From: a virus
Strand: one strand, 5' to 3'
Virus record (IMG/VR): IMGVR_UViG_3300005532_000006
Span: 26,868 to 90,867 of that record
Length of the DNA stretch: 64,000 nucleotides
Shown here: positions 2,601-53,190 of the stretch, in pieces
Layout: each line of letters opens with the position of its first letter
Numbering within the stretch: the first letter of the stretch is position 1
Made by a program: the position numbers and the translations under genes
Notes under the pieces: generated by a model
Told to the model about the DNA's origin: nothing
Database searches by the model: none
What the model saw: only the letters and a program-made list of their open reading frames with translations

Positions 2601-3149
2601 CTATCCGTTCCACGTGATCGCCTGATTGGCCGGCTGCGCCGAGCCGAAGGAGGCGGAGAACGGCGACGGCATCGCGCTCGGCACGGTCATGTTGAGCTGT
2701 GTCGCCGAGTTCAGCGTGTTGGTCATGTCGCCGGCGACCAGGGTATCGAGGTCGCCCGTGCCGTTCTGATCGGCAGGCGACTGCGGATCGTCGATGACCT
2801 TGATGACCATCTCGAACGGCACCCGCGAGACGAATTCGAACTCCGGTTTGAAGTGCGCGATGACGACCGTATAGGAAAGCACATCCCACGACAGCGTGAC
2901 CGGGGTGCCGGTCTGCCGCATCTGGTCGATTTCCAACGCCGCCGCGACGGCGTCGCCGACATCGTCGGAATAGAGCGTGCCCTTCCAGTGGATGTCGTCG
3001 TCGCTCGGCCCCATCACGTCGACGATACGCACGCCGCCCGGCAATTGGTGGACGCCGAGCCGCTGCGCGCCGCCGAAGTTGATGTTCTTGTCGGGGACTG
3101 AGCCGCCGCGGGCCGTGAACTGCCCGATCTGGACGGGAAAAAGCTCCAT
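2601..3149 (-). CDS. Tail/baseplate protein, unassigned
   Basis: This 182-residue protein lies between the tape measure and the LysM/hub genes. It shows a conserved-looking stretch (MGPSDDDIHWKGTLYSDD, residues 47-64) that recurs in small proteins encoded just after the tape measure in several alphaproteobacterial myophages. Composition is beta-rich with a low-complexity C-terminus (MPSPFSASFGSAQPANQ). From position it probably contributes to the tail hub or baseplate core. Function is inferred only from synteny. Confidence 0.6.
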   Translation of the reverse strand: MELFPVQIGQFTARGGSVPDKNINFGGAQRLGVHQLPGGVRIVDVMGPSDDDIHWKGTLYSDDVGDAVAAALEIDQMRQTGTPVTLSWDVLSYTVVIAHFKPEFEFVSRVPFEMVIKVIDDPQSPADQNGTGDLDTLVAGDMTNTLNSATQLNMTVPSAMPSPFSASFGSAQPANQAITWNG

Positions 3150-3158
3150 GGCGGAGAA

Positions 3159-3338
3159 TTACCGCCGCGCGCGATCGACGATCGTCGTGCCCAAGCAAAG
3201 CATCGGCTGGACCTCGATCGACAGCGTCTTTGCGGCGTACTCGCAGTCCTGCTGCTGCGCGTAGTAGCGGATCAGATCGGCCTCGACGTGACCCGAACTC
3301 AGCCACACCGCGACGAGCGCCCACGCCATCGTATTCAT
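3159..3338 (-). CDS. Small secreted or membrane-anchored protein
   Basis: A 59-residue ORF with an N-terminal hydrophobic segment (MNTMAWALVAVWLSSG) followed by a polar region with two cysteines (QQQDCEYAAK and MLCLGTT). An AGAGGG Shine-Dalgarno precedes the ATG at 3338 by about 9 bases, and the gene fills the gap between tape measure and the next tail gene. Family not recognised. The two cysteines beyond the signal-like segment suggest an exported, disulfide-bearing product. Confidence 0.5.
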   Translation of the reverse strand: MNTMAWALVAVWLSSGHVEADLIRYYAQQQDCEYAAKTLSIEVQPMLCLGTTIVDRARR

Positions 3339-3481
3339 GATCGGGGACCCTCTTGGGAAATCAGTTCGGCGACGGCCGCGCCGAACCGCCGGACGTGTCG
3401 GGCCGCGCGAAATCCAGCTTGTCAGGCACCATTGCGGCCACTACGCTTACTCCTATCGCGTAAAGTTTGGAGCAACAGCCC

Positions 3482-3739: not shown

Positions 3740-6331
3740 GTAGTCAGGCCGGGCACCGCCAGCAGCCTTGCCGCCGCCGGACAAGGCTTGTGCGACACCC
3801 TTGGCGGCCAAGGCCGCGATCTGCGAGCCAAGTTGGCCCATGTTGATGTTGACGTTGCCGGTCAGGGTCGCGGTGCCTTGCAGCTGCACGGCCCGGCTCG
3901 CGGTCGCCTGGATGGCTGCGGCCGCGGCCTGAAGGGCCGCCACCGCTCCCGCTAGAGCGCCCGCCACGGCACCGGCGCCTGCGGGGTTGTGTCCCTCGCC
4001 CCCGGCCATGCCGCCGTGGACCCCGCCGACGGTGCCGAGCGCGTACGAAGCGCCTTCGGCTTCGTGAGCAGCCGTCCGAGCCACGGGCATCGTGTGTAAA
4101 TCGAGGCCCAGCGCCTTGCGCTCCGCAGGTGTGGGGACAAACCCGGGGATTTCTCCAGCCATCGTGCCAGCGCGCCGGATGAACGGCGGCATGGTCCGGT
4201 TGTGAGCATCCAAATTTAGCGGTGCTTTGTATCCAGGAAGCGCTTCGGCCAGTTCCGGAGTTAGCTCAGGATCAAGGCCAACAAGCGCCCGAACGTAGTC
4301 TGAAATCGTCTGCCACATCTCGGCCTGGCCGATCTTCTGCGAAGACCAGCCCTTTTTCCGCAATTGTGGCTCTATCTTGTTAAACTTCTCCCAGTCGATG
4401 CTATTCAAGTAGTCGTATGCAAGGAATCCAGCGCCCGCTGTGCCAAGTGCGGCACCGAACGCTCCAAAACGCCGTAGGACGCGACTTGCTTTCGAGACTG
4501 CTGCCCCAGCACCGGCGCCGGCTGCGGCCTTGGCGGGGCCGCCGGTTATAGTGCTCCCCGTTAACCGGCCCGCGGCCGCCGAGAGCTGGCCCGCCGCCAA
4601 GGAGAGCCTTCCGGCGGCACCAGTAAGAGCAGGGCCTGCCGTCAGTAGGCGATAAGCTGCCCATCCGCCGGCCAAGCCTATGCCCCCGATCCCGCCGATC
4701 TCTGTGGCGCGGGCAATGCTCGGATGTGCAGCGCGCTTCTCTGCAATCCAGCTCAGCGCATCCGTCGCCAGATTGACAACACCCAGATTGTCGGTGACTA
4801 AGCCAATCGTTGAGGCGAGCGAGTCGAGTTGTTGCCGGAATGCCTGAAGCGCCTGTTTCGGATCGGAGCGGTCATAGTCGGTGCCGACCTGGTTAACCAT
4901 TTCTGATGTCCGAACCATGTTCGGATATTGCGCCAGGAGTTCTTCGACGAACTGTACGGCCTTGCGATCGCTGAAAGCCATGTTCAACGCGCGCATCGCC
5001 TTCGCGCGCTCGTTGATGTCTCCGGCTTTGGCCTTCCCCCAATCTATGCCGAGGTTAGAAAGGGCCGGCAGGAGATCTTTGACGACCCATTTCAGCGGCT
5101 CGTTCATCTTGAGCAGTTCGTCTTTCCAAGCACCAGCCTCAATTTTCACGTGGCCGTGCTCTGAGCGCCATTTGTGCGGGTCAAGCAGGCCAAGCTTCGT
5201 TGCAAACTCCATGGATGCGACTGTCCCGCGGCCGAATGTCGAGCGCTGGAAAGTCTGTGCCATAGTGCCGACTTTTGAGCCGCTGCCCATCGCCATAAAC
5301 AGTTCGGGCAGATAGTGGGTGATAAAATCCGGGTCCATCATGTAAGCGGCGGACCCGGCTGTTGACGCGAACTGTGTGAACGCATTCGCGCCCATCTTGC
5401 CGCCGGACGCGATTACGGCACGCATTGCGCCCGTGATGAAGCTGTTGAGGCGTTCCGGGCTCGTATTAAAACCGAGCTGCTCGCCGGCGCGTATTGCGCT
5501 GTAGAACTGGCTGGCTCGCTCTCCGGTCGTGCCGGCGTTCTCTCCCATGCTGTTTGCCAGAACAGCGTTCCACTTGGCCGCTTCCGGAAGCCAGTGCATC
5601 AGCTCCGGCATCGGATCGCCGCCGTGAGACATGCTCATCATGATCGGATAGAGCTCGCGCTCCAGCGCCATGACCGAGGCTGCCGACATGTTCGGGACCT
5701 GCCGGGCCACCCGATAGGCGGCTTGGTTCATCAGGCCCAAGTTGGCTGCGGCGCCCGGACTCGTGCCGAGCATCTGCCGCGCAAGAAATCGTTGATGGCC
5801 GTATTCAACACTCGGTTCGAGGACGGTGCCGGCCATGCTGGCCATCATCTCGATGTCATTCACGGCGTAGAAGCCGCGGCGGGCAAGTTCCCACATGCTG
5901 GCATGTCCACCGCGCGGAGCATGCCCCCCTGAACCGATAGCGGGCGGCCTGCCGCTCGGCGGAACGCTGCCCCCAGTGCCACGCGGCGGCGCGCGGAGCG
6001 TCGAAAGCAATTTCGACAAAGCCGACGCTTCACTCCTGGCCGCCTTCAAATCGCCAGCCAATGTCTGGACACCGCTGGCTGCGCCGGAATTCAGCCGGAC
6101 TGTCCGAAGCGTCTCCCCAAGCTCCCTTGACGATTTTGCTGCTATCGCGGCAGTGCGCGACAACAGTTCCATATCCTTGGCCGCTCGGCCGACGCCGAGG
6201 GTACTAAAGGACTTACCGAACTCCTTCTCAAGCCGGCCGATCTTCTCAAACATTGCTCCGATTTCGCGGAGCCGCCGCGTGGCGCGGTCATTCAAAACAA
6301 GATCGGCTTCAACCAAAAAGCGAGCACCCAT
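3707..6331 (-). CDS. Tail tape measure protein
   Basis: An 874-residue protein with the architecture of phage tape measures: an N-terminal charged, coiled-coil-prone region (LREIGAMFEKIGRLEKEF near residues 20-45), a long helical middle, and hydrophobic Gly/Ala-rich segments around residues 545-570 and 620-645 that could enter the host membrane. The C-terminus is Ala/Gly-rich. Tape-measure length sets tail length, so this size implies a tail of moderate length. It follows the chaperone genes in transcription order, although here the 6.8-11.7 kb accessory island separates them. Confidence 0.9.
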   Translation of the reverse strand: MGARFLVEADLVLNDRATRRLREIGAMFEKIGRLEKEFGKSFSTLGVGRAAKDMELLSRTAAIAAKSSRELGETLRTVRLNSGAASGVQTLAGDLKAARSEASALSKLLSTLRAPPRGTGGSVPPSGRPPAIGSGGHAPRGGHASMWELARRGFYAVNDIEMMASMAGTVLEPSVEYGHQRFLARQMLGTSPGAAANLGLMNQAAYRVARQVPNMSAASVMALERELYPIMMSMSHGGDPMPELMHWLPEAAKWNAVLANSMGENAGTTGERASQFYSAIRAGEQLGFNTSPERLNSFITGAMRAVIASGGKMGANAFTQFASTAGSAAYMMDPDFITHYLPELFMAMGSGSKVGTMAQTFQRSTFGRGTVASMEFATKLGLLDPHKWRSEHGHVKIEAGAWKDELLKMNEPLKWVVKDLLPALSNLGIDWGKAKAGDINERAKAMRALNMAFSDRKAVQFVEELLAQYPNMVRTSEMVNQVGTDYDRSDPKQALQAFRQQLDSLASTIGLVTDNLGVVNLATDALSWIAEKRAAHPSIARATEIGGIGGIGLAGGWAAYRLLTAGPALTGAAGRLSLAAGQLSAAAGRLTGSTITGGPAKAAAGAGAGAAVSKASRVLRRFGAFGAALGTAGAGFLAYDYLNSIDWEKFNKIEPQLRKKGWSSQKIGQAEMWQTISDYVRALVGLDPELTPELAEALPGYKAPLNLDAHNRTMPPFIRRAGTMAGEIPGFVPTPAERKALGLDLHTMPVARTAAHEAEGASYALGTVGGVHGGMAGGEGHNPAGAGAVAGALAGAVAALQAAAAAIQATASRAVQLQGTATLTGNVNINMGQLGSQIAALAAKGVAQALSGGGKAAGGARPDYSGGSVKPSPN

Positions 6332-6778
6332 TTACTTGGCCCCCGTAAAGACGTGCTCGAATTTTCTTGCCATTTCTTGCTCGACCGGCTTTTGACTGAG
6401 CTTCATCGCCGGCTCCATTACCGGCCGCGGCGGTATTCCGCGCGACGTGCCTAGTTCCTGAAACAGGTCAATCAGATCATTGCTGCCAACTGAAAATTCG
6501 CGCTCGCCAGCGACCACAGACTCGACGCTGTCGCGGATCGCGCCGCTGCGCAGCAAAGGACTGGGCGAAGGCCAGCCGTGCCGCGCCTTGTCTTCCAAGG
6601 TCGAAGCCGCCAGCCCAGGCCAACCCGCGCCAGCGCCATTGCCGTACAAGCTTTGCGCCCGCTTTTTGACGATCTCGGCGCCCTCTTTGAGCATCCGCCG
6701 CTTGGCCTCCGGCATATGGCCGGCGCAGCGCTGGAGAAACTCGCCGAACTCGGCGAGGCTCTTGAAGGTGCGGGTCAT
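6332..6778 (-). CDS. Phage virion morphogenesis / HK97-gp10-like tail completion protein
   Basis: A 148-residue protein with the pattern of small neck/tail completion proteins: a helical N-terminus (MTRTFKSLAEFGEFLQRCA), the WPGLAASTLEDKARHGWP region and a C-terminal LFQELGTSRGIPPRPVMEP motif. The last, of the form Q-x-x-T-x-x-x-PPRPF/V, is the hallmark of the virion morphogenesis (Mu gpG, HK97 gp10) group. It directly abuts the tape-measure gene, an unusual place for a neck protein, which suggests rearrangement when the accessory island entered. Confidence 0.75.
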   Translation of the reverse strand: MTRTFKSLAEFGEFLQRCAGHMPEAKRRMLKEGAEIVKKRAQSLYGNGAGAGWPGLAASTLEDKARHGWPSPSPLLRSGAIRDSVESVVAGEREFSVGSNDLIDLFQELGTSRGIPPRPVMEPAMKLSQKPVEQEMARKFEHVFTGAK

Positions 6779-6821
6779 CGGTGTCTACTTTTTGGTTTGC
6801 GGCGTAGATGGGGAGGGAGTG

Positions 6822-7196
6822 GTGCGCTACCTCGTTCTCATCGTGATCATTCTGATCTTCATTTTCCCGACCTCGCGCGAAGCCACGCTCGCGGTAATCG
6901 CGGGGCTGATGCACCAAGCAAGGGATCTTGGACAGTCGGGGTTGCCCGAGTGTGACAGTCCTCGGGCGCGCGAAGAAGTTGACGACACGATCTCCCGCGC
7001 TCCCCTAGGGAAGATCTACGGGATATCGGTTATTGAATACGACGCAGTTGAGACAGTTTCCCAATCAGCCTCTTTGGTGGAATGCAAGGCGACAGTTGTG
7101 CTCAACAACGACACGTCGCATCCCGCGACTTACAGCTTCACGCTCAAGGGCGATCAGCAGTTTGTGCGCTTCCGGATCATAGGATTGGGCGACTAA
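6822..7196 (+). CDS. Plus-strand moron: secreted or membrane-anchored protein
   Basis: A 124-residue protein with a strongly hydrophobic N-terminus (VRYLVLIVIILIFIFP) that acts as signal anchor, followed by a soluble domain of about 95 residues. The GTG at 6822 is preceded by a GGGGAGGGAG purine run. Composition is less GC-rich than the flanking genes. It lies antisense to the structural operon beside another signal-peptide protein, so the pair looks like a lysogenic-conversion cassette. Family not recognised. Confidence 0.6.
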   Translation: MRYLVLIVIILIFIFPTSREATLAVIAGLMHQARDLGQSGLPECDSPRAREEVDDTISRAPLGKIYGISVIEYDAVETVSQSASLVECKATVVLNNDTSHPATYSFTLKGDQQFVRFRIIGLGD

Positions 7197-7198
7197 CC

Positions 7199-7417
7199 AT
7201 GCAAACCATGAAGCAGCGGCGCGGCCACTTCAGGCGCCCAGTTATCCTGGCGCTTCTATCCATATTGCTCACGCTCAGCCCCATGGCAGACAGCGCCGCT
7301 CGCGGTCATCGCGGCGGCATCTACGGCTTCCGCTCCAGCCCGTGCAAAAGCTCATCGTGCTGGTCGAAGCACCCGAGCGGGTCGTGGACGCACCCGCTGA
7401 CGCGGCGGAGGCGGTAG
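7199..7417 (+). CDS. Small secreted Cys-containing protein
   Basis: A 72-residue protein with a twin-arginine-like basic start and a clear signal peptide (RRPVILALLSILLTLSPMADSA). The mature region of about 40 residues contains the pattern CKSSSCWSKHPSGSWTHP, which recurs in short exported proteins of alphaproteobacteria whose role is unknown. The gene starts 3 bases after its upstream neighbour ends, so the two are likely co-transcribed. Its stop faces the antitoxin gene tail to tail. Confidence 0.55.
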   Translation: MQTMKQRRGHFRRPVILALLSILLTLSPMADSAARGHRGGIYGFRSSPCKSSSCWSKHPSGSWTHPLTRRRR

Positions 7418-7419
7418 GA

Positions 7420-7764
7420 TCAGGCCATCGCCAGTTGGCGGTCGGTCTCCGGCTCCGCCTCCCGGTCCTCGAATTCGATTACCAGCCGCTTGCCGACTGC
7501 GAGGGCCGCACGGTCGAGCGTATCGATTGTTATGCCGGCACCGTTGGGGTCGAGAAGCCTGTCTACGGCGGTGCGGCTGGTGTGCATGCGGCGGGCCATC
7601 TCGGCCTTCGTGATGCCCGATAGCCGGATCCAGTCTGCCACCATGTAGGCGATCACCTTGCGCCACGCCTGATCGACCACGACTGCATCAATCCCCTCTT
7701 CGACGAGGAAATCGTCGAAATCGCTGCCGATATGAGGATTTGTCTTTCCAGTGTTTGCGGTCAT
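7420..7764 (-). CDS. HigA-like antitoxin, XRE-family
   Basis: A 114-residue protein with the layout of HigA/XRE antitoxins that follow RelE-type toxins: FDDFLVEEGI near residue 16, then a helix-turn-helix (GITKAEMARRMHTSRTAVDRLL, residues 51-72). Start at 7764 is fixed by the ATGA overlap with the toxin gene stop; the longer frame upstream is the toxin region in another frame. It would bind and neutralise the toxin and repress the common promoter. Confidence 0.85.
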   Translation of the reverse strand: MTANTGKTNPHIGSDFDDFLVEEGIDAVVVDQAWRKVIAYMVADWIRLSGITKAEMARRMHTSRTAVDRLLDPNGAGITIDTLDRAALAVGKRLVIEFEDREAEPETDRQLAMA

Positions 7765-8120
7765 TTTGCTTTTTCCATTCGGCGTTTGCGCGCACGCGCC
7801 AGGTTGATGTCCGATTGAGGGGTTTTCTGCTGCTTCTTGATGAAGCCATGCAACAGCAGCATGCGACCCTCGTAGACGCTGAAGATCACCCGCGCGATGC
7901 GCGTCGGCAACTCGGTCCGCACCTCCCATAGCCCATTGCCCAGAGGCCGGCACAGCGGCAACCCGACTGGCCACCCGTACTCTGCCGCCTTGATGTCTCT
8001 CCCGATCGCAATCCGCTCATTCTCAGGCAAACCCTTGAGCCAATCCCTTACCGGCTCCGCTCCCGCCGCGGTCCTGTAGAACGAGACCGGGAGCTTTTTC
8101 CCTGACCCAGGCTGTACCAA
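7761..8120 (-). CDS. HigB/RelE-like toxin of a type II toxin-antitoxin pair
   Basis: About 119 residues if started at the TTG at 8118-8120; the exact start is uncertain because no good Shine-Dalgarno is present. The family pattern is clear: VSFYRTAAGAEPVRDWLKGLP, then RPLGNGLWEVRTELP, RIARVIF and the C-terminal MLLLHGFIKKQQKTP motif. These are typical of the phage-derived Gp49/HigB group of mRNA-cleaving toxins. The toxin gene precedes the antitoxin, as in hig systems, with ATGA coupling. In a temperate phage such pairs serve stabilisation or exclusion of other phages. Confidence 0.85.
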   Translation of the reverse strand: MVQPGSGKKLPVSFYRTAAGAEPVRDWLKGLPENERIAIGRDIKAAEYGWPVGLPLCRPLGNGLWEVRTELPTRIARVIFSVYEGRMLLLHGFIKKQQKTPQSDINLARARKRRMEKAK

Positions 8121-8194
8121 ATTTGGTGCGCCAGTGCCAGGGATTAAATCGCTCCGCCCAGATAAAGGTTCCGTTACCGGCGAGCTCTTCGTCC

Positions 8195-8398
8195 TCACTC
8201 GCTCGCTTTCCCTCGCGGCTTCGGCCGGTGCACCGGTATCTCGTCCCGCGACAGCCCGCGCTCGATAAGTTGGCGGATCGCTTCCGCCTCTGTGGGTATG
8301 CGGTGCGCGAACCGGAAATCCTCTATCGCCTTCGCCTGCTCCGTCGTCAGTGCGACGAGCTTCTTGACGGGGTAAATCACTGCTGAGTAGCGCGCCAT
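8195..8398 (-). CDS. Small ribbon-helix-helix-like protein
   Basis: A 67-residue protein with a beta-strand start (YSAVIYPVKKLVALTTEQAKAIEDF) and two helices (TEAEAIRQLIERGLSRDE), the arrangement of CopG/Arc-type DNA-binding proteins. It lies upstream of the toxin gene and is transcribed from a promoter that is divergent to the 8.5-10.5 kb operon, so it could regulate either. The ATG at 8398 lies only 10 bases after the -10 box, giving almost no leader. Confidence 0.6.
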   Translation of the reverse strand: MARYSAVIYPVKKLVALTTEQAKAIEDFRFAHRIPTEAEAIRQLIERGLSRDEIPVHRPKPRGKASE

Positions 8399-8407
8399 CG
8401 CCTGGCA

Positions 8408-8458
8408 AAAATAGTCGATATTGACGCTATTGACAAGAGCGCCTATAGGCTATATGTT
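8408..8458. promoter_or_regulatory. Divergent promoters with GCCTATAGGC palindrome
   Basis: Rightward: TTGACA at 8430-8435, a 17-base spacer, TATGTT at 8453-8458, leading to the operon at 8534. Leftward: TTGTCA (complement of 8431-8436), a 17-base spacer, TATTTT (complement of 8408-8413), leading to the gene at 8398. The two -35 boxes overlap, so the promoters should compete. The rightward spacer contains a perfect 10-base palindrome GCCTATAGGC (8441-8450), a candidate operator for the small DNA-binding protein. Based on sequence match only. Confidence 0.65.
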
Positions 8459-8533
8459 CAATGCGTTCAATAGCGGCCCGACCGAGAGCTGGAACCTCCC
8501 GACCGGGCCTAACCCCAGCCAAGGAGATGGCCC

Positions 8534-8866
8534 ATGGCTACGGCTACTGCCACACTTACCACATCCTCTCTGCACAATCTGCCCGTTGGCGACATCGTCG
8601 ATGAACTCGGCGCACTGAAAGCCAGTATCGCGGACCTCGAAGCCCGCGAGAAGCGGCTGCGCGACGAGCTGGTCGCCCGCGGCGTCGGTGAGGCCGAGGG
8701 TGCGCTGTTCCGCGCCACCGTCTCCGAGGCGATCCGTTGGACGCTCGACAGTTCCTTGGTCAAGGAGCGGATGGGCCACGATTGGTGGAACCAACACTGC
8801 CGCACTGCCAGCGTGACGACGGTCAAGGTCTGCGCCCGCACCGGCTCCTTCAAGGCGGCGGCGTGA
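8534..8866 (+). CDS. Hypothetical protein with N-terminal coiled coil
   Basis: A 110-residue protein that opens the rightward island operon. It has a Thr/Ala start and a charged heptad region (IVDELGALKASIADLEAREKRL, residues 18-39) that should form a coiled coil, then a C-terminal TLDSSLVKERMGHDWW segment. An AAGGAG Shine-Dalgarno lies just upstream. Such short coiled-coil proteins occur in phage early operons next to single-strand-annealing or replication genes. Function unknown. Confidence 0.65.
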   Translation: MATATATLTTSSLHNLPVGDIVDELGALKASIADLEAREKRLRDELVARGVGEAEGALFRATVSEAIRWTLDSSLVKERMGHDWWNQHCRTASVTTVKVCARTGSFKAAA

Positions 8867-8867
8867 G

Positions 8868-9410
8868 ATGGCCGCGACCAATCCCGCTGCCGGCGTTCGC
8901 CGGCGCAAGCCGCGCGCACGCCTCTACCGGCGGATCGATCTGCGCCGCCGGCGGCGGCGCGTTCATCCCCCGACGATCACCGCGGAAGCCGCACTGCATC
9001 TGCTGATGGAAGAGGCGGATATCTTCGCAGTCGGCCGCAGCCGCTATCTCGTTGCGTGGATCGATGCCGACGTACTGGAAACCCTGATCGTCGCCGCGGG
9101 CGCCACCGAAGACCGCGAAGAGAACGGCGACGACGAGCCGGATAGCGATCGCGAGCCGGATGTGGACGACGAGCCATCGGTCGGAGCCGATGATCTCGAA
9201 AGCGATGGTCTCGACGACGAGGGCGGCGAACGGACCGACGAAGACGTGCTGCCTTCTCCAAGACCGCGGCCGCCCATCCTCGACGGCGGTCTCGTCGAAG
9301 TCAGCTACGACCCCGTGAACGGCCAGAAGGTTTTCACTGTCGTCCGCGCGTTGCGGGTCGATCTCGCCAGCCCCGAGCCGCCGCTCGTCGCACCGACAGG
9401 AGCACGCTAA
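8868..9410 (+). CDS. Hypothetical protein with highly acidic middle
   Basis: A 180-residue protein with a very basic N-terminus (Arg-rich, residues 10-33), a small ordered part (LLMEEADIFAVGRSRYLVAWID), and an acidic, probably disordered segment of Asp/Glu (residues 80-125). A C-terminal strand-rich end follows (GGLVEVSYDPVNGQKVF). It begins 2 bases after the previous stop and ends where the RAMP-like gene begins (TAATG overlap), so it is a strict operon member. Family unknown; the acidic stretch could mimic DNA or RNA. Confidence 0.6.
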   Translation: MAATNPAAGVRRRKPRARLYRRIDLRRRRRRVHPPTITAEAALHLLMEEADIFAVGRSRYLVAWIDADVLETLIVAAGATEDREENGDDEPDSDREPDVDDEPSVGADDLESDGLDDEGGERTDEDVLPSPRPRPPILDGGLVEVSYDPVNGQKVFTVVRALRVDLASPEPPLVAPTGAR

Positions 9411-43886: not shown

Positions 43887-44024
43887 ATGAAGATCGGGAT
43901 CCCAGAGCAACAGGTGATCGAGGTGCCGGCGCCGGTGGCGGTGCCGGCGATCCCGCCGGCCCGCAAGGAGCCGCGCCGCGCGCCCGCCAGGGAGCCGGCC
44001 CGCAAGGAGCCGGTGCCGGCATGA
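43887..44024 (+). CDS. Proline/alanine-rich short protein
   Basis: A 45-residue ORF (MKIGIPEQQVIEVPAPVAVPAIPPARKEPRR) rich in Pro, Ala, Arg and Glu, probably disordered. It starts 4 bases after the previous stop, and its own stop overlaps the next start by ATGA, which supports translation. Confidence 0.45.
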   Translation: MKIGIPEQQVIEVPAPVAVPAIPPARKEPRRAPAREPARKEPVPA

Positions 44025-44476
44025 CCGACAAGCGCATCCGGATCGTCGCCGGGGCGCCGCTCAAGGCGGCGCTACGCGCGACGGCCGGCGAGGAATACCC
44101 GACCGGCCGGGTCAACTCCATCGCCGAGCGTTATCTCGACATTGTCGAGGAGGCGCGCCCCGCCTTCGCGCGCGCCGAGTGGTGCGCGGTCTGCGACGCC
44201 AACAACGGCGCCGGCTCGTTCGACGAGCTGGAGATCGCCGGGGCGCCGGAATGGATGGTGCTCGCGGCCAACGTCGCCGATACCCCCGGCCTCGGAGCCA
44301 AGTGGGATATCGACCAGCGCGATCTGGTGCGGCGGCTCGACGGGCTGCCGCGCGCCGGCAAGATCGCCGTGCTCGAAACCGCGCAGCGCTTCTGGGCGCT
44401 GACGGAATTGCCGACGGAGGAGGCGCTCGACCTCGCCACCAGCCACCCGGCGACGTGGCCGGAGATTGATCGGTGA
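44021..44476 (+). CDS. Hypothetical protein upstream of HNH gene
   Basis: A 151-residue protein (VAGAPLKAALRATAGEEYPTGRVNSIAERYLDIVEEAR, then EWCAVCDANNGAGSFDELEIAGAP). The CAVC pair could bind metal. It is ATGA-coupled on both sides. Small proteins of this kind occur with the AcrVA2-like gene as part of accessory operons; role unknown. Confidence 0.55.
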   Translation: MTDKRIRIVAGAPLKAALRATAGEEYPTGRVNSIAERYLDIVEEARPAFARAEWCAVCDANNGAGSFDELEIAGAPEWMVLAANVADTPGLGAKWDIDQRDLVRRLDGLPRAGKIAVLETAQRFWALTELPTEEALDLATSHPATWPEIDR

Positions 44477-44709
44477 GACGCCCCGGCCGCGCCGCGCGCC
44501 GGACCCTGATGCGCGCGCTGCTGGCGCGCGACAACGGCCGCTGCCGGCTCTGCGGCCGTGCGGTCGCGCCGGGAGCGCCGGCGCCGGAGGACCGCGCGAC
44601 GATCGGCCATATCTGGCCGCACGCGCTCGGCGGCGAGGCGAGCCTCGCCAACACGCGGATTGAGTGCGCGGCGTGCAACGAGGTGCACGGCCTGCTGCCC
44701 CGATGGTAA
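44473..44709 (+). CDS. Small HNH endonuclease
   Basis: A 78-residue protein started from GTG at 44473. The HNH core has C24-x2-C27, then HIWPHALGG with catalytic H46, followed by N60 and C65-x2-C68. The two CxxC pairs bind the structural zinc. Such minimal HNH proteins occur in phage genomes near packaging or accessory genes and nick or cleave DNA. Confidence 0.8.
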   Translation: MRRPGRAARRTLMRALLARDNGRCRLCGRAVAPGAPAPEDRATIGHIWPHALGGEASLANTRIECAACNEVHGLLPRW

Positions 44710-45758
44710 GCGGCATCATCCCCTCGCCGCGGCTGCGGCTTGAGGAATGGGGCCGGGCGATCCCCGGCCTCTGGCACGCGGTCGAAGCGCAGCGCGCCGA
44801 ACGGCGGCCGGACAGCGTCGAGTGGCCGGCGCCGGTGTTCCTGCCGCTGGAGCGCGCCGGTGCCGCGACCCTGGCGGCCATCCTCGCCGCGGGGCAGCGC
44901 CCGCCGGACGGTCCCGCCGAGCTGTCGGCGCCGGCCTGCACGACGCAGTGCCTCGCCGCCTGGCGCATGACACAGGGCATCTACCGCATCGACCCGACGC
45001 TGTACGAGGCGCTGATCGCGACGCCGATCGCCGGCGACATTCCGGCCGACGTGCTGCTCTACCTGCCGGAGTGGTGCGTCTATATCGAGACGCCCGGCAT
45101 GACGGCACCCGCCGCGGATCGCGAGCCGCTGCCGGTGGCGGGGCTGTGGTACTGGCTCGATAGCGGCCCCGGCCGCGAGATGGCGCTGTGCATCGGCATC
45201 GATCTCGGGCGGCGGCCGCCGATCCCGGTGCAGCATGTCCCGCTGATCGGCACGCTCGACGCGGCGCTCAATGCGACCGTGCGGGAATGGGCCGATGCGG
45301 TCGAGCGCGGCAACGCGGCGCGGCCGCCGCCACCCGGCTACCGGGAGGCGGCCCGCGCTTGGCTGCCGGCCGCACTGTCGCTCGTGCTGTATCTGTGCAG
45401 CCGCGCGGCCGACATCGACGGCCGGCCCGGCAACCCGGCCGCGACGCGGACGCGACGCGGCGAGCGGCTGTTCCCGGCCAGCGGGCCGCGGCGCTGGGAG
45501 GTCGGCGTCAGGCTCGGCGCCGCGCTGCGGGCCGCCTGGGACGCCGCCGCGGAAAGCAGCGGCTCGGACGCAACCGGCGCCCGCCGCCCGGTGCGCCCGC
45601 ACGTGCGCGGCGCGCACTGGCACACCTACCTGCGCGGGCCGCGCAAGGACGTGCCGGCGGACAGCCGCCCGCGCGAGCTGCGCTGGCTGCCGCCGATCCC
45701 GGTCGCGGTCGAGGATTACGATGCGCTCCCGGCGGTGGTTCGGCCGGTAAAACCATGA
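44703..45758 (+). CDS. acrVA2: AcrVA2-family anti-CRISPR protein homologue
   Basis: A 351-residue protein that follows the AcrVA2 pattern along its length: GIYRIDPTLYEAL (92-104), DVLLYLPEWCVYIET (116-130), LWYWLDS (148-154), LPAALSLVLYLCSRAADI (221-238), a WEVGVRLGAALR block (265-276), RPHVRGAHWHTYLRGPR (298-314) and a closing RWLPPIPV (327-334). The family inhibits type V-A (Cas12a), acting on its production at the mRNA/nascent-peptide level in published work. Homologues are widespread on plasmids and phages, where their target is often untested. It lies tail to tail with a type IV-B csf1 gene. Confidence 0.78.
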   Translation: MVSGIIPSPRLRLEEWGRAIPGLWHAVEAQRAERRPDSVEWPAPVFLPLERAGAATLAAILAAGQRPPDGPAELSAPACTTQCLAAWRMTQGIYRIDPTLYEALIATPIAGDIPADVLLYLPEWCVYIETPGMTAPAADREPLPVAGLWYWLDSGPGREMALCIGIDLGRRPPIPVQHVPLIGTLDAALNATVREWADAVERGNAARPPPPGYREAARAWLPAALSLVLYLCSRAADIDGRPGNPAATRTRRGERLFPASGPRRWEVGVRLGAALRAAWDAAAESSGSDATGARRPVRPHVRGAHWHTYLRGPRKDVPADSRPRELRWLPPIPVAVEDYDALPAVVRPVKP

Positions 45759-45847
45759 GACCCGCATCCTTCCCGGCGCCGCAGCGGGGTCAGGGCCTCC
45801 GACGCTACCGGGGCAATCCGCCGGCACTGCGGCCACTCACGCGATGA
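45755..45847 (+). CDS. Short basic ORF at end of the Acr operon
   Basis: A 30-residue ORF (MRPASFPAPQRGQGLRRYRG) coupled by ATGA to the AcrVA2-like gene. It overlaps the last 11 bases of csf1 on the other strand. Composition is Arg/Pro-rich and may not reflect a functional protein. Confidence 0.3.
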   Translation: MRPASFPAPQRGQGLRRYRGNPPALRPLTR

Positions 45848-46550
45848 GCACCGCGATCGTCAATTCGACGCTGCCGCGGTGCGGCGCCAGCGCCGCTTCC
45901 AGCGCGGCGGTAGCGGCGAGGCCGAGGCGATCCACCAGCTGCGCCTGTAACCACAATCCATAGAACGCGGCCCGCTTCGTCGCGCCGGCGGCGATTGCGT
46001 CATCGACCGCGGCGATGGCCCGCTCGACCCGCCGCAGATCGAATATCGTCCAGCCGGAAACGTCGTAATCGGGGACGTGCAGGTAGAGGCCGGGCGCGCC
46101 GCAGGTCGCCAGCTGCGCCCGCGGCCACAGCCGCGGTTTCGGATCGCTCGTCAGCACGCCGGTCATCGGCGCGTCGCCGCCGGCCCGGCCGATCTCGCCG
46201 AGGACATGGCGCCACCGCGGTCGGCCCTCGATCTCCTGCGCGATCGTCGGCCACCAGCCGCGATCCCCCACCACGAGACAGCCGCGGTGCGTGCGTTTCG
46301 GATCGCCGTAGAACCAGGCGCAGGCGCGGCAGGCATGCGTGCCCCACCGCGCGAACTCGCCGTGGCCGCTGAAGGTGTCGTTGTCGATCCCGGCGACGCC
46401 GCGGCGCGGCGCGAACGGCACGCCCTCGGCAATCTCGGCGCCGCAGGTGCAGCAGCGGCCGGCCGCCGGCTCGAATTGATATTGCGACCCCGTCTTGCCT
46501 TCGGGCGACCGGCTACCAAAGCCACGCCACATCAGCTCTGCGGCGGTCAA
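45837..46550 (-). CDS. csf1: Csf1, large-subunit (Cas8-like) protein of type IV-B CRISPR-Cas
   Basis: A 237-residue protein beginning with TTG at 46550 (or ATG at 46532). It has the Csf1 zinc-ribbon arrangement: C33-x2-C36 (CCTC) and C74-x2-C77 (CRAC), separated by 37 residues. The rest is helical at the C-terminus (RAAFYGLWLQAQLVDRLGLAATAALEAALAP). Csf1 is the signature subunit of type IV effector complexes that binds near the crRNA 5' end. It is the last gene of the cluster, with no nuclease domain. The start overlaps the stop of the Gly-rich peptide by TTGA. Confidence 0.82.
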   Translation of the reverse strand: MTAAELMWRGFGSRSPEGKTGSQYQFEPAAGRCCTCGAEIAEGVPFAPRRGVAGIDNDTFSGHGEFARWGTHACRACAWFYGDPKRTHRGCLVVGDRGWWPTIAQEIEGRPRWRHVLGEIGRAGGDAPMTGVLTSDPKPRLWPRAQLATCGAPGLYLHVPDYDVSGWTIFDLRRVERAIAAVDDAIAAGATKRAAFYGLWLQAQLVDRLGLAATAALEAALAPHRGSVELTIAVLIA

Positions 46551-46633
46551 CGGCCCTTGCCTCCCTCGCCACCCCCACCGCCGCTACCGCCGCCACCGCC
46601 GCCGCCCTGTCGAGGCCCGCTCGATCGCGCCAT
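46547..46633 (-). CDS. Glycine-rich micro-protein between cysH-like and csf1 genes
   Basis: A 28-residue ORF (MARSSGPRQGGGGGGGSGG) with a textbook GGAGG Shine-Dalgarno 8 bases before the ATG. Its TGA overlaps the TTG start of csf1, so it may act as a translational coupler or leader for csf1. It is one of the few cases in this window of an unusually strong ribosome-binding site on so short an ORF. Confidence 0.5.
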   Translation of the reverse strand: MARSSGPRQGGGGGGGSGGGGGEGGKGR

Positions 46634-46647
46634 TCTTTCGTCCTCCG

Positions 46648-47427
46648 TTACGACCACCGGCTCATCTCGGGAAAAATCTCGATCAGCCGCATCCACACAT
46701 CCGGCCACATATGGCGCAACTCGGCCCAGCGTCCATAACGCGTCGAGGTGTCACCGAGCAGTGTGCCTGTGCGCCTTCGTTCCGGGCTGGTTTCGCCCTC
46801 CCGCAGATAAATCTCGCTGAGCGGCAGATTGTGCGCCAGTGCGTAGGCCATAACGTCTGCGCCAGTCCACCACGCCAAGGGGCAGGCGATCACTGCGCCG
46901 TCGCGGCGCGTCCGGATCGGCCCATAGCGCCGCATCGACATTGCTCGGGGCCGGCTCTCATCCGCGCGCAGACCGAGCAGCGTCACGGGGTAGCCGCGCT
47001 CTCGTATTGCCGCTGCCGGCTCGGTGATCAGGATGCGTTTCCAGTCGCTGCCGGCCCAATGCCATTCGCCCGGCAGCTGCTCCGGTCCGCTGTAGCCGAG
47101 ACCGCCGATCAACTTGAGCATCTCGACGATCGACCGCTCCGGATAGACGGTCTCGATCCGCCAACTGCGCTGCCGTAGCGCCTCGATCACTGCCAGCGCG
47201 GCGGGATGCTCGGCTCCGCTATCGATAAAAAATCCCTCTACGTCATTGCCAAATTCGTGGCGCGCGATGTCACTCAGCACCAGCGAATCCTTGCCGCCGG
47301 AGATCATCAGAGCCGGACGACCCAGCCGGGCCGCCTCGCGCAGCAGGCGTCTGGTTTCGGCGAGGCGCCGCCCATATGCCACGCTCTGCGCATGCGCGAG
47401 ATAGCCCGCTCGCGTCAATGCGTCCAT
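46648..47427 (-). CDS. CysH-like PP-loop (PAPS reductase family) enzyme of the type IV-B cluster
   Basis: A 259-residue protein with the PP-loop motif SGGKDS (residues 43-48), ALMISGGKDSLVL and the later HPAALAVIEALRQRSWRIETVYPE and LLGLRADESRPR blocks typical of the phosphoadenylylsulfate reductase superfamily. CysH-like genes are a hallmark of subtype IV-B loci; their role is unknown, with ideas including sulfur chemistry on a nucleic acid. Start at ATG 47427, 1 base after the csf3 stop. The canonical CysH C-terminal catalytic ECG-type Cys tail is absent. Confidence 0.85.
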   Translation of the reverse strand: MDALTRAGYLAHAQSVAYGRRLAETRRLLREAARLGRPALMISGGKDSLVLSDIARHEFGNDVEGFFIDSGAEHPAALAVIEALRQRSWRIETVYPERSIVEMLKLIGGLGYSGPEQLPGEWHWAGSDWKRILITEPAAAIRERGYPVTLLGLRADESRPRAMSMRRYGPIRTRRDGAVIACPLAWWTGADVMAYALAHNLPLSEIYLREGETSPERRRTGTLLGDTSTRYGRWAELRHMWPDVWMRLIEIFPEMSRWS

Positions 47428-47428
47428 A

Positions 47429-48214
47429 TCAGCCCTGCCGCAGTGCCGTGCGCACCGCCGCCATCGACGCGGGATGCCAGTAGGGCGGCGTCCAGCCGAG
47501 GCGCGGCGACAGGCGTTCGGGTGCCACGGCAAGGCCTTTGGCGGCGAGATAGGCCACCGGGACGTTGCGGTGATCAAGAATATAGTCGGCGTCGATTTCC
47601 GGCGCCGGCTCGATCTGCCACGACAGCACACGGCCGCGCCCGTGCGCGCCTTTGCGGCCGACATGCCAGACGCGGTCGAGCAGCATCGTCACCGCATTGC
47701 GGTCGCCGATGCACCAGCCCTCGACGGCCGCCGTGACGGTGACCGCCAACGGCATGCGCACGTCCTTGTAGCGCCCCGCTTTTGTCGGCGCGGTCTGCCG
47801 CACGGCCAGATCGGCCCGCTCGCTCGGGTAGCGCGAGTGCAGATACGCGCTGCCCCGGGAAGCTGCACCGATCGGGCGCAGATCGCTCGCCAGCCACAGC
47901 GGATCGCCCGCCGGAGATGCCCACGCCAATGCCAGCGGCAGCGGGATAACGTAGCGCTCGATGCCGTCGTCCACGACCGAGGCCCACAGCGAAAGACAGG
48001 CCGCACTCAGGAGGCCGTCGAGATGCAGCGCCCCATCCAGCGGAGCGATGTAGCCGCTGGCGAGCGTCCCGACGATGTGGAGCGGTTCTGCCGGCAGGTG
48101 CTGCCAGCGCCGCCACAACCCGCGCCAGCAGCGTTTCCCGTCACCGTATTCGCGCTCCCGGCACGCGGTCGGGAACCGCTCCACCGGCAGGTCAAGAATA
48201 GGTGCGGGGGTCAT
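47429..48214 (-). CDS. csf3: Csf3, Cas5-like RAMP subunit of type IV-B
   Basis: A 261-residue protein. The N-terminal RAMP strand (LHIVGTLASGYIAPLDGALHLDGLL, residues 45-69) and the glycine-rich loop VGRKGAHGRGRV (185-196) match the Csf3 (Cas5) family, which caps the 5' end of crRNA. ATG at 48214 overlaps the csf2 stop by ATGA. The window has no Cas6, in keeping with IV-B systems, which associate with ncRNA whose origin is debated. Confidence 0.8.
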   Translation of the reverse strand: MTPAPILDLPVERFPTACREREYGDGKRCWRGLWRRWQHLPAEPLHIVGTLASGYIAPLDGALHLDGLLSAACLSLWASVVDDGIERYVIPLPLALAWASPAGDPLWLASDLRPIGAASRGSAYLHSRYPSERADLAVRQTAPTKAGRYKDVRMPLAVTVTAAVEGWCIGDRNAVTMLLDRVWHVGRKGAHGRGRVLSWQIEPAPEIDADYILDHRNVPVAYLAAKGLAVAPERLSPRLGWTPPYWHPASMAAVRTALRQG

Positions 48215-49059
48215 GCCGCGACGGCGCAGAGCGTCTTGTCGGTCCCGAGCGATCCCGACAGGATGCCCTCGCGCATCGCGGCGCGATGCTCGTCGATATG
48301 CGCATCGTAGGCAGCGGGTTCCGGGGCGGGACCGAGCCATCCCAGCCGGCATCGGCCACGGCCCTGCCGCGCCTGGCCGCCGATGTAGCCGTCCTATTGC
48401 GCGAGGCCGCGCCCGGCCGCGGCGGCCGTCGCCGGTGGTGACCAGTCGTCGAGCATCAGTTCGACGGCGATGCGAACGCCCGCCGCCAGCACCTCGTACG
48501 TGTAGAGCATCTGGTTGCCGTGCGACTCGCCGCCGGTACCGCGCGTGCGGGTCTCCTCGCCGATCATGTCATAGGCGCTCGCGGTGCGCGCCTGACCTGC
48601 GAGTTCCGGAAACAGCGCCTCGATCGGCGCGAGGTATTCCTCGGCGACGATCCACGCGGCGAGGCGCAGCCGCGAGCGCGGGATGATGAACGTATCGACG
48701 GCACCCCCGAGCAGGTCGAGCGAAGGGTAGAGCCGCTTGACCATATGCCCGAGCGCGGTTTCGTCGCCGGGGGCGCGGCCCGATCCCATGTTGCCGCCGG
48801 AGTAGAGGAGGTTGAGCACCGGACGCGGCACGACACCGGAGCCGATGGCGAGTGTCGTAAGTAGGTGATCGGCCAGCGGCGTACGCAACAGCACCGAGCG
48901 CAGCGCGTTCTCGCTGACGTGCGGCGTGTAGACGAGGCGGCCGTTGCGGTGCGCCGGCTGGGTCATGAACAACCGCACGTTGGTCGTGTTGTCGATGCCG
49001 GTGCGGGTGTCGAAATGCGCCACCGGCGTCAGGGTTTCGAGCACAAAACGGTAGCGCAT
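48211..49059 (-). CDS. csf2: Csf2, Cas7-like backbone subunit, interrupted by an in-frame amber codon
   Basis: Codons 1-221 (49059 to 48397) encode [21 protein letters not shown] and the TPHVSENALRSVLLR, LLYSGGNMGSG regions typical of Csf2. An in-frame TAG at 48394-48396 is then followed, without any frame change, by 60 more codons (DGYIGGQARQGRGRCRLGWLG, ending LCAVAA) to TGA at 48211-48213. The post-TAG segment carries the IGGxxxxGxG loop that Cas7 proteins use to form the backbone, so the ancestral protein was about 282 codons. ATGA coupling with csf3 uses the full-length stop. Either a knock-out mutation, a read-through site, or a sequencing error. Without suppression the Cas7 is truncated by about one fifth. 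Confidence 0.82.
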
Positions 49060-49514
49060 CAGGCCGCCTCCCCCATTGGATCGCTTGCCGCGACTATCGG
49101 CTCCGCCAGGTCGAATACATCGATCGGATCGGCGAGCGGCACCGTCTGTCCGGCAGATGCCGATGCCGCCGTCGCAATGCGGCCGCGCCGCGCCAGGTGG
49201 CGGGCGATCATGACGCAGCTCTGCGAGCGCTCCGCCAGCGCCCGCAGCACCTCGGGATCGTCGTCCTGCGGCGCGATCAGCGCCAGCACCGCGTCGTCCC
49301 ACTGGCTCGGGCCGATCGTCCACTGCATCGTCCGCGCGGAGAGGTCCCAGCAGCGCCGCACGGTATGGCTGCGCTCGGCGGCAAGCCGCAGCCGCGCCTC
49401 CAGGACGCCGTAGCGCCGCGCGCCGCCGAACAGGCCCTCCCCGCCGTGCATGCGGATCATCAGGCCAACCAGCGCGACCGCTCGTCGCTCAGCCGGCGTT
49501 AGATCATCGATCAT
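49059..49514 (-). CDS. cas11: Small subunit (Cas11-like) of type IV-B complex
   Basis: A 151-residue, mainly helical protein ([66 protein letters not shown]). Size, helicity and position immediately upstream of csf2 (TGATG overlap) fit the Cas11 small subunit encoded in IV-B loci. Sequence conservation in this family is poor, so the assignment rests on context. Start at ATG 49514. Confidence 0.65.
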
Positions 49515-49531
49515 GGCTATCCGTGCCTCCC

Positions 49532-50628
<1,097 letters not shown>

Positions 50629-50629
<1 letters not shown>

Positions 50630-51081
50630 CAGTCGGCCACGTTCCTGATTTCGGCGGGGCTGTATTCGCGCTGCGCCGGACGGCGGTATTTGCCGGCAGG
50701 GATCGCGTGCGCGGTATGCTCCTCGTGGACGAGCGGCGACCACGGCCGCTTCGGTATGACGACGCCGGCGACCTCGTCAATGTCGGCGAGCGCGAACTTG
50801 ACGCGGCCCTGCCGTTCTGTCGTCACCGTCACCGAGGTCTCGTCGCGCTCGACGATGACACCGCCGACGGGGCCGGAGAAGTCGCCGGCGACATCGAGGT
50901 ATTGCTCACCGTCATCCGTCCGCAGCAGTACCGCGCCCTCGGTTTTGATCGCGTGCGCATGGCCCGTCACCTCGCCGTAGGCCAGCACGACTCGGCCGCG
51001 GTCGCGCGGCTGTTTCGCCGCCTTCTTTGGGATGGCCTCAACAGCCACAAGAAAAACATCGCCTTGTCGGTACATCGTCAT
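50629..51081 (-). CDS. Hypothetical phage protein (RQGDV type)
   Basis: A 150-residue protein with MTMYRQGDVFLVAVEAIP at the start, a GHAHAIKTEGAVLLRTDDGEQYLDVAGDF centre and an HEEHTAHAIPAGKYR end. The RQGDV-GHAHA-HEEH pattern is a recurrent phage/plasmid beta-barrel protein of unknown role, often beside DUF6745-like genes. The stop overlaps the following ATG (TGATG). Confidence 0.6.
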
Positions 51082-51094
51082 GCTCTCCTCTGCC

Positions 51095-51367
51095 TCAGGC
51101 GTTGATGCCGTCGCGGATCCGCTTCGCCGGCTTGAATGACACCGCCCGCGATGCCGCGATGTCGATGGCTTCCCCGGTGCGCGGATTGCGGCCCTTCTTC
51201 GCCGGTCGGTCCTTGACCCCGAAGATGCCGAGCGGCGTCGTCACCGTGTCGCCGGCCTTGAGTTGCGTCTGCAGCGTTTCCGACAGCGCCGCCAGCACCT
51301 CGCCGGTCATCTGCTGCGAGCAGACCGCCTTCTCGGCGACGCGCTTGATCAGTTCGGACTGGTTCAT
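51095..51367 (-). CDS. HU/IHF-family DNA-binding protein
   Basis: A 90-residue protein started at MNQSELIKRVAEKA (ATG 51367, overlapping the previous stop by ATGA). It has the HU pattern: an N-terminal helical dimerisation region (LAALSETLQTQLKAGDTVTTPLGIFGVKDRPAKKGRNPRTGEAIDI, residues 27-72) with the GRNPxTGE arm motif, and a C-terminal FKPAKRIRDGIN. It should bend DNA for replication or recombination. Confidence 0.92.
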   Translation of the reverse strand: MNQSELIKRVAEKAVCSQQMTGEVLAALSETLQTQLKAGDTVTTPLGIFGVKDRPAKKGRNPRTGEAIDIAASRAVSFKPAKRIRDGINA

Positions 51368-51684
51368 CGTGCTCTTCCTTCCCCTGGTTCTCCCGCTGTT
51401 GACCCGGCGGGCCGGGCGTTGCATCGGCTGAAGTAATCGGGCGGCAGCGATCCGGCTGGCGTCGTCATCCGCTTCCGAGCATGGCGCTCGAACTGCGCCC
51501 GCGATGTGCGGCTGAGGCTACCGATCGGTCCGCCGCAGCTGCGGCAACGCGGGCCGCCATCTCGACGGCCGCCGCATCCGGCCGGCCCAAGTTCGACCCA
51601 GCACTGCGCGCCGCGGTCGCACTCGATGGGCCTGACCTGCTCCCGCAGCGGACGGGCCGCGTCGATGACCGATTGCGGGGTCAC
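51364..51684 (-). CDS. Zinc-ribbon-like small protein
   Basis: A 106-residue protein started from GTG at 51684 by GTGA overlap with the gene before it. It has a cluster of cysteines (ECDRGAQCWVELG, CGGRRDGGPRCRSCGG), C-x6-C and C-x8-C-x2-C, that could bind zinc, followed by a disordered, basic C-terminus. Family unknown. Confidence 0.55.
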   Translation of the reverse strand: MTPQSVIDAARPLREQVRPIECDRGAQCWVELGPAGCGGRRDGGPRCRSCGGPIGSLSRTSRAQFERHARKRMTTPAGSLPPDYFSRCNARPAGSTAGEPGEGRAR

Positions 51685-51947
51685 GCGGGCACCAATGTCA
51701 GGCCCGCGACTTGCTCGCCACGCGCCAACCGATGCCAGCGTTCCGCCGGCATAATCATTCGCTCGCTGAACCACTCGCCTTTCGGATCGCAGGGGCTCAC
51801 CCGCACGTCTCGGCCGATCCCGAGGTACACGCGCCGAAAGGCGTACACGTCCGCGTGCCACTCCCAGCGCTCGCCCTCGGTAAGGCTCGAATAGCTGACA
51901 TCGAGGCACTTCTTCCGGGTGTCGGCGTACGGGTGCGGGACGCTCAT
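51681..51947 (-). CDS. Hypothetical small protein
   Basis: An 88-residue protein (MSVPHPYADTRKKCLDVSYSSLTEGERWEWHADVYAFRRVYLG, then RDVRVSPCDPKGEWFSERMIMP). It starts by ATGA overlap at 51947 after the DUF1376 gene. Conserved-looking tryptophan-rich beta pattern; no family assigned. Confidence 0.6.
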   Translation of the reverse strand: MSVPHPYADTRKKCLDVSYSSLTEGERWEWHADVYAFRRVYLGIGRDVRVSPCDPKGEWFSERMIMPAERWHRLARGEQVAGLTLVPA

Positions 51948-52825
51948 GCGACCCCCCACATTCGGCGGAGTTCCTCAGGAAGCTCGGGCGGCGGCCCTTT
52001 CGGCCCGCTGCTGCGGGCGGCGGCCTTTTCGGCCAAGCTGACGACCTCCGCAGGCTCATCGAGCCAGCGTTCCTCGGCCAGCCACTTCGCGGGGTTGCAC
52101 CACTGCCGGTCTGGCGGTTTGGTGTCGCCGTAGCGCTTGGCTGACGCGGCGAGCGCTGCCGGAGACGCTCTCTGCGAGGCCAAGACGTAGGCTGCCCTCG
52201 CGGCCGCCTTGCCGACCTTGTGAGGGTAGGCCTCCCAAAATCCGCTAAAACCCCCGTCTCGCGCGCGCGTCTCATGCGAAGCATGAGATGAAGGTGGATG
52301 GTGGATGGTGGATGGTGGGATTTCCGATAACCCATTGTTTTCGGCTGAAGTGGGCAATTCCTGCGGCGTTTCTGAGGCCGCAGGACTGCCGCAGGACTGC
52401 CGCAGGACTGCCGCAGGATCGGCGCAGGGGCGCCGAAAGCGCATCCGCGATCGCGCCCTTTGCAGCTCCTCAGCGCACCGTTTGATGTAGATGCGGCGTC
52501 CGTCCTGTTCGATCTTTCCCTTCTCGACTAGGGCCGCGAGAACGCGACGCAACTGTCGCCAATGGCAGCAGCAGCGCAGCGCCAGTTCGCGCTCGTCCAT
52601 GTCGAGCCAGTCGTCATCGCTGGCGTGCGAATAGATCAGATTGATGATCGTATCGTAGATGCCGCGCTCTTCCGGTTTGAGGCCAGCCACGCCATCGAGC
52701 CAATCGCCGGGATGCCAATCGAACCGTCGCGGTTTCACCGCTCCTCTCCCCGAAGGAATGTTCCACCTTGGTACGCGCCCGCCACTCCCTTCCCCGGCGC
52801 CGGGCCCGTCGCGGATGCGGCTCAT
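51944..52825 (-). CDS. DUF1376 phage replication protein
   Basis: A 293-residue protein started at ATG 52825 by ATGA overlap with the XRE gene. Residues about 32-120 carry the DUF1376 motif (FDWHPGDWLDGVAGLKPEERGIYDTIINLIYSHASDDDW, then LRRVLAALVEKGKIEQDGRRIYI), a winged-helix-type replication initiator domain. The C-terminal part (GGFSGFWEAYPHKVGKAAARAAYVLA) is common in phage replication proteins. A long low-complexity linker of repeats joins the two parts. Confidence 0.85.
   Translation of the reverse strand: MSRIRDGPGAGEGSGGRVPRWNIPSGRGAVKPRRFDWHPGDWLDGVAGLKPEERGIYDTIINLIYSHASDDDWLDMDERELALRCCCHWRQLRRVLAALVEKGKIEQDGRRIYIKRCAEELQRARSRMRFRRPCADPAAVLRQSCGSPAASETPQELPTSAENNGLSEIPPSTIHHPPSSHASHETRARDGGFSGFWEAYPHKVGKAAARAAYVLASQRASPAALAASAKRYGDTKPPDRQWCNPAKWLAEERWLDEPAEVVSLAEKAAARSSGPKGPPPELPEELRRMWGVA
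52293..52320. repeat. GGTGGAT tandem repeats in the DUF1376 linker
   Basis: Three perfect GGTGGAT units plus a partial copy lie in the linker-coding part of the gene, just after a perfect hairpin TCTCATGC-GAA-GCATGAGA (52270-52288). Period 7 is not a multiple of three, so changes in copy number would shift the reading frame. Confidence 0.7.
52380..52418. repeat. 11-base GCAGGACTGCC tandem repeats in the DUF1376 linker
   Basis: Three consecutive units of GCAGGACTGCC (52380-52412) and a partial fourth (GCAGGA). Like the 7-base repeat, the unit length is not a multiple of three, so slippage would change the reading frame between the two domains. Confidence 0.75.
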
Positions 52826-53190
52826 TCCGCCGCCTCCCGCATCTCCACCGTCTCCGGCAGCGCCGCCACGAAATCCCCGAACGCCACAAGCCGATGCACC
52901 GGCATCCGGCCGCACAGCTTGAGGAGCCGTCGCGCGTCTTCACTGAGCGGAAGTGGTTCGATGAACGCCTCCGCTGGCGTGATTCCGACGGCATGGGCGA
53001 AGCGGAGGAGCTGGCCCGCGGTCATCCGCTCGTCGCCGGCCTCGACCTTTTGCCAGAAGCTAGGCGAGCAGCCGGCGTTTTCGGCGGCGTCGGCGATCGT
53101 CATGCCGCGCAGCAGCCGCCAGCGCCTCAGGTTGCGCCCGATCGCGCGGTCGATGTCGCCGATGTGCGGGTTGCCGCGGCGGCCGGTCAT
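52822..53190 (-). CDS. XRE-family regulator
   Basis: A 122-residue protein with an N-terminal helix-turn-helix (LRRWRLLRGMTIADAAENAGCSPSFWQKVEAGDERMTAGQLLRFAHAVG, residues 19-67), then a helical C-terminus rich in acidic residues. It belongs to the Cro/CI-like family and could be a second phage regulator controlling the replication genes. ATGA coupling to both neighbours. Confidence 0.85.
   Translation of the reverse strand: MTGRRGNPHIGDIDRAIGRNLRRWRLLRGMTIADAAENAGCSPSFWQKVEAGDERMTAGQLLRFAHAVGITPAEAFIEPLPLSEDARRLLKLCGRMPVHRLVAFGDFVAALPETVEMREAAE

Follow-up and report, generated by a model that had tools for sequence, protein, structure and literature searches.

The type IV-B operon

The window analysed here is a stretch of 64,000 nucleotides that corresponds to positions 26868-90867 of the 90,867-base virus record IMGVR_UViG_3300005532_000006. 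The record belongs to a contractile-tailed phage, as indicated by its own tail sheath, portal, terminase large subunit and major head protein (PHROGs). On the minus strand the window holds a compact type IV-B CRISPR-like operon with the gene order cas11-csf2-csf3-cysH-csf1 (Table 1). The core genes of type IV-B, csf2, csf3 and csf1, are all recognised by PADLOC (E 1e-22 for csf2), csf2 being interrupted by an in-frame TAG. Internal stops are absent from the remaining genes of the operon and no second csf2 was found elsewhere in the record.

Table 1. Features of the operon, in window coordinates.
Feature	Position	Strand	Remarks
cas11 (small subunit)	49059..49514	-	151 aa; overlaps the csf2 start (TGATG)
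csf2 (Cas7), 5' part	48397..49059	-	221 codons; expected product under normal termination
In-frame TAG	48394..48396	-	csf2 codon 222 of 282; TGG (Trp) in 17/17 relatives
csf2, 3' part	48211..48393	-	60 open codons and TGA; contains IGGQARQGRGR, the last predicted strand and two helices
csf3 (Cas5)	47429..48214	-	intact, 261 aa; PADLOC type IV Cas5, E 2e-29
cysH-like	46648..47427	-	intact; Pfam PF01507, E 2e-17
csf1 (Cas8-like)	45837..46550	-	intact, 237 aa, CxxC zinc-finger motifs; PADLOC typeIV_Cas8, E 3e-7

The small subunit gene has no match among the Pfam or PADLOC models, and cas11 was therefore named from its position and its homology: tblastn matches it, with E 7e-6 to 9e-20, to the csf2-adjacent gene at the equivalent place in 14 relatives. 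The csf3 product also matches NCBIfam TIGR03116 with E 4e-15, which is under the cut-off of that model, and is 63% identical to its counterpart in the relative L011; for csf1 the identity to L011 is 67%. The cysH-like product has the PP-loop SGGKDS, with no cysteine where the C-terminal catalytic one is usually found. A PP-loop without the catalytic cysteine is described for the cysH-like genes of type IV-B (PMC8175902).

The csf1 gene is the 3'-terminal gene of the operon, after cysH, as it is in L011 (csf1 at positions 2648-3367), whereas most of the relatives have csf1 upstream of cas11 and csf2. No CRISPR array was seen at the locus, in keeping with type IV-B: no regularly spaced repeat-spacer family occurs among the repeats listed for positions 44000-53000, those shown being short runs in tandem or pairs due to chance. 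An array of 9-base repeats at 50248-50460 lies inside a DUF6745 gene (49532-50587, minus strand), where it encodes repeats rich in Ala, Asp, Arg and Trp; the opposite reading is collagen-like (GPxGPx).

The in-frame amber codon

The csf2 gene starts with the ATG at 49059, and its frame is interrupted by TAG at 48396-48394. The 60 sense codons that follow are closed by a TGA at 48213-48211, which overlaps the ATG of csf3 (48214-48212) in the sequence ATGA (48214-48211). The coordinates thus bear out the sequence-only reading, which had placed an amber codon in the csf2 frame with the frame closing at the csf3 start, and its estimate that about one fifth of the protein is lost corresponds to 60 of 282 codons, or 21%. 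The first 39 codons after the TAG contain no start codon, so re-initiation could not restore the glycine-rich loop.

A six-frame scan of the whole record singled out this TAG as the only stop of a called gene that is flanked on each side by 60 codons of coding-like sequence and followed by 39 codons free of starts, in agreement with the earlier statement that no further gene has an internal TAG. One similar row in the scan, at 54891 on the plus strand, is antisense to a helicase/methyltransferase gene. Three other spots with coding-like sequence beyond a stop (two TGA and one TAG) gave no Pfam match.

Relatives and conservation downstream of the stop

The csf2 column was compared in 17 relatives, consisting of 13 viral contigs and four contigs from bacterial MAGs. 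A first round gave seven viral relatives with approximately 60% identity, followed by L011 (69%), one further viral contig and the four bacterial MAG contigs (together L011-L023). The last four (L105, L110, L113 and L114) were obtained with a DNA pattern scan that accepted either TAG or TGG at the codon. All 17 relatives have TGG at this column and all have the full-length tail. A genuine short Csf2 in close relatives, which would have spoken against a disrupted gene, was looked for and every one of the 17 was full length. Neither INPHARED (phages) nor PLSDB (plasmids) gave a Csf2 match at E 1e-5.

The frame after the TAG is genuine Csf2 sequence. The PADLOC type IV Cas7 models align straight through the TAG (residues 6-265), and the motif W-D-x-[YF]-x-G-G-Q-x-R-Q-G-x-G, whose tryptophan is the position of the stop, is found in 17/17 relatives. 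The glycine-rich segment DGYIGGQARQGRGR, noted earlier as conserved-looking, has eight invariant residues in 14 sequences (G227, G228, Q229, R231, Q232, G233, G235 and R236). Of the tail columns, 25 are conserved in 80% or more of 12 outgroups; at these there are four changes restricted to L011 and none restricted to the window, and the tail is therefore not decayed. Estimates of dN/dS for the tail were too noisy to supplement this count, with dS near or past saturation. Identity of Csf2 to L011 is 71.5% before the stop and 58.6% after it, and the lower identity of the tail is also present between L011 and the remaining relatives. A possible frameshift in the tail (CRLGWLG) was dropped since a matching CRAEWIS is present in L011.

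Predicted structure of Csf2

Foldseek matched an AlphaFold model of the read-through Csf2 (mean pLDDT 79, pTM 0.80) to Cas7 chains of type IV complexes (7XG1, 8RC3 and 7JHY), whose fold it shares. In the model the strand 235-241 and the helices 249-257 and 259-268 fall after the stop. In addition to the eight invariant residues of the glycine-rich segment, truncation removes the invariant W222 and D223. The solved structure of a type IV-B complex has a helical backbone that Csf2 builds on RNA with Cas11 (PMC7937560), and the Csf2 of 7JHY contains a matching GHLGGRSAAGHGQV segment. The loss of the strand, the glycine-rich loop and the helices would most likely disable the Csf2 subunit.

Stop codon usage and tRNA genes

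Gene calling by codon usage gave 92 genes for the record; TAG ends 23 of them (csf2 included), TGA 49 and TAA 20. Beyond most of the TAG ends the extended frame is not coding-like, and where it is, it mostly enters the following gene.

Outside the window, at positions 4582-9104 of the record (locus L001), lies a very large array of tRNA genes. ARAGORN identified 29 tRNA genes, and reading the gaps by eye added about eight more (Tyr, Ile, two Ser, His, Asn, Trp(CCA) and Phe), so that most anticodons are covered in this 91 kb record. No tRNA with the anticodon CUA was found in the array with ARAGORN, including its loose setting, with Rfam, with a custom scan of the gaps for CUA arms, which had no positive control, or by eye. 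Such a tRNA is absent also from the 7.1 kb that a sibling contig adds past the left end of the record. A tRNA-like gene on the minus strand at L001 8845-8940 has a long variable arm (class II shape) and the anticodon loop TTTATAA; its anticodon reads UAU, which is unusual for tRNA-Ile.

The sibling contig

A sibling was sought with the csf1, csf3, cysH and capsid proteins and one was found, IMGVR_UViG_3300027773_000004 (L028/L100). Across 73,704 bases it matches the record with 100% identity and zero mismatches, which indicates that consensus errors are rare here unless the two assemblies share reads. The sibling contig ends within cysH, at window position 46837, and so stops 1.56 kb before it would reach the TAG; the TAG base is consequently read in one contig alone. 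The break may reflect local variation or low coverage. An exact pattern search found no other record with the TAG site.

Origin of the amber codon

The best explanation, to which a probability of about two in three is assigned, is a single recent nonsense mutation from tryptophan to amber in the csf2 gene of an otherwise complete phage type IV-B operon. A codon that is TGG in all of the relatives, each with a full-length product, would have been changed once, and the undecayed tail suggests that this took place recently. Normal termination would give a Csf2 of 221 residues that lacks the IGG...GRG loop, the C-terminal helices and the last of the predicted strands. A Cas7 subunit of this kind would probably neither fold nor polymerise on RNA, and the Csf2-Cas11 filament should then not form. 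The csf3 start overlaps the csf2 stop, so the mutation may also be polar, with csf3 translated less as coupling at the ATGA overlap is lost.

A tail free of decay and a stop that is the sole defect of the operon are also compatible with an error or with read-through. The TAG could be a single-base sequencing or assembly error, or a consensus artefact from a mixed population, in which case the csf2 of the phage is intact. It is one base away from the codon of every relative, no other gene in the record is broken by TAG, and the sibling assembly breaks nearby, for which uneven coverage or local variants may be the cause. The agreement of the two assemblies at every shared base speaks against an error, unless both were built from the same reads. 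The base is regarded as probably real, and an artefact, though less likely, as the leading alternative.

Partial read-through, by near-cognate tRNAs or in a suppressor host, would yield the two forms of Csf2, short and long, in a fixed proportion, and the conserved, open tail speaks for it. Both tRNA-Gln(CUG) and tRNA-Tyr are near-cognate to UAG, and the record encodes a tRNA-Gln (anticodon CTG) and, as read by eye, a tRNA-Tyr-like gene. Against this, the stop is kept in none of the 17 relatives, no CUA tRNA was found, and general suppression would lengthen about 22 other called genes that end with TAG. The RNA fold downstream is also ordinary: in the 100 bases around and after the stop no unusual structure was found, the fold being no better than shuffles (z +0.45). 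Read-through is thus improbable, and a version in which the amber is kept on purpose, supplying a small fixed share of full-length Csf2 while the short form limits filament length, still more so.

That the 221-residue Csf2 is itself a functional short form, such as a filament cap or a regulator, is very hard to sustain. The stop does lie near a domain edge, between the predicted helix 209-221 and the strand 235-241, but every relative is full length and the cut removes W222, D223 and the invariant G, Q and R residues of the loop. Lastly, the proposal that TAG is a sense codon in the code of the phage, or in csf2 alone, has nothing but the csf2 stop itself in its favour and can practically be discounted, given that TAG terminates 23 of the 92 called genes, that sequence past most of these ends is not coding-like or runs into the next gene, and that no suppressor tRNA was found; record-wide recoding, already thought unlikely from the sequence, is refuted.

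Of the four options left by the sequence-only reading, a knock-out by nonsense mutation is consequently the best supported. Regulated read-through gained no support and recoding was rejected, while a sequencing error keeps a minor share of the probability.

Comparison with known systems

The operon shares csf1, cas11, csf2 and csf3 with the type IV-B Csf complex of Mycobacterium sp. JS623 (PDB 7JHY; PMC7937560), and its Csf2 aligns with that of 7JHY through the glycine-rich segment. It also has a cysH-like gene, as is general in type IV-B. Unlike the JS623 complex, it is borne by a tailed phage, its csf2 is cut by TAG and its csf1 is 3'-terminal after cysH, as in L011. The type IV-B locus of the Fuxiviridae of Bathyarchaeia is likewise virus-borne and includes a cysH-like gene, according to the available part of the report (PMC10848311), which also cites type IV systems in prophages and lytic phages. 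That locus differs in belonging to an archaeal virus and in having a two-repeat mini-array, and a broken cas7 is not reported in the same part of the text. An in-frame TAG in a conserved phage gene is also a property of gut phages with TAG recoding and suppressor tRNAs; as described in the available portions of, for example, PMC10607447 and PMC10879173, these have TAG in many genes or encode suppressor tRNAs, whereas here a single TAG is present and neither property was seen.

The csf2 stop alone adds no new mechanism. If the stop is real, it provides a natural csf2 null within an otherwise complete phage type IV-B operon, and with it a natural comparison, and it suggests that the filament is dispensable for the phage, at least for now.
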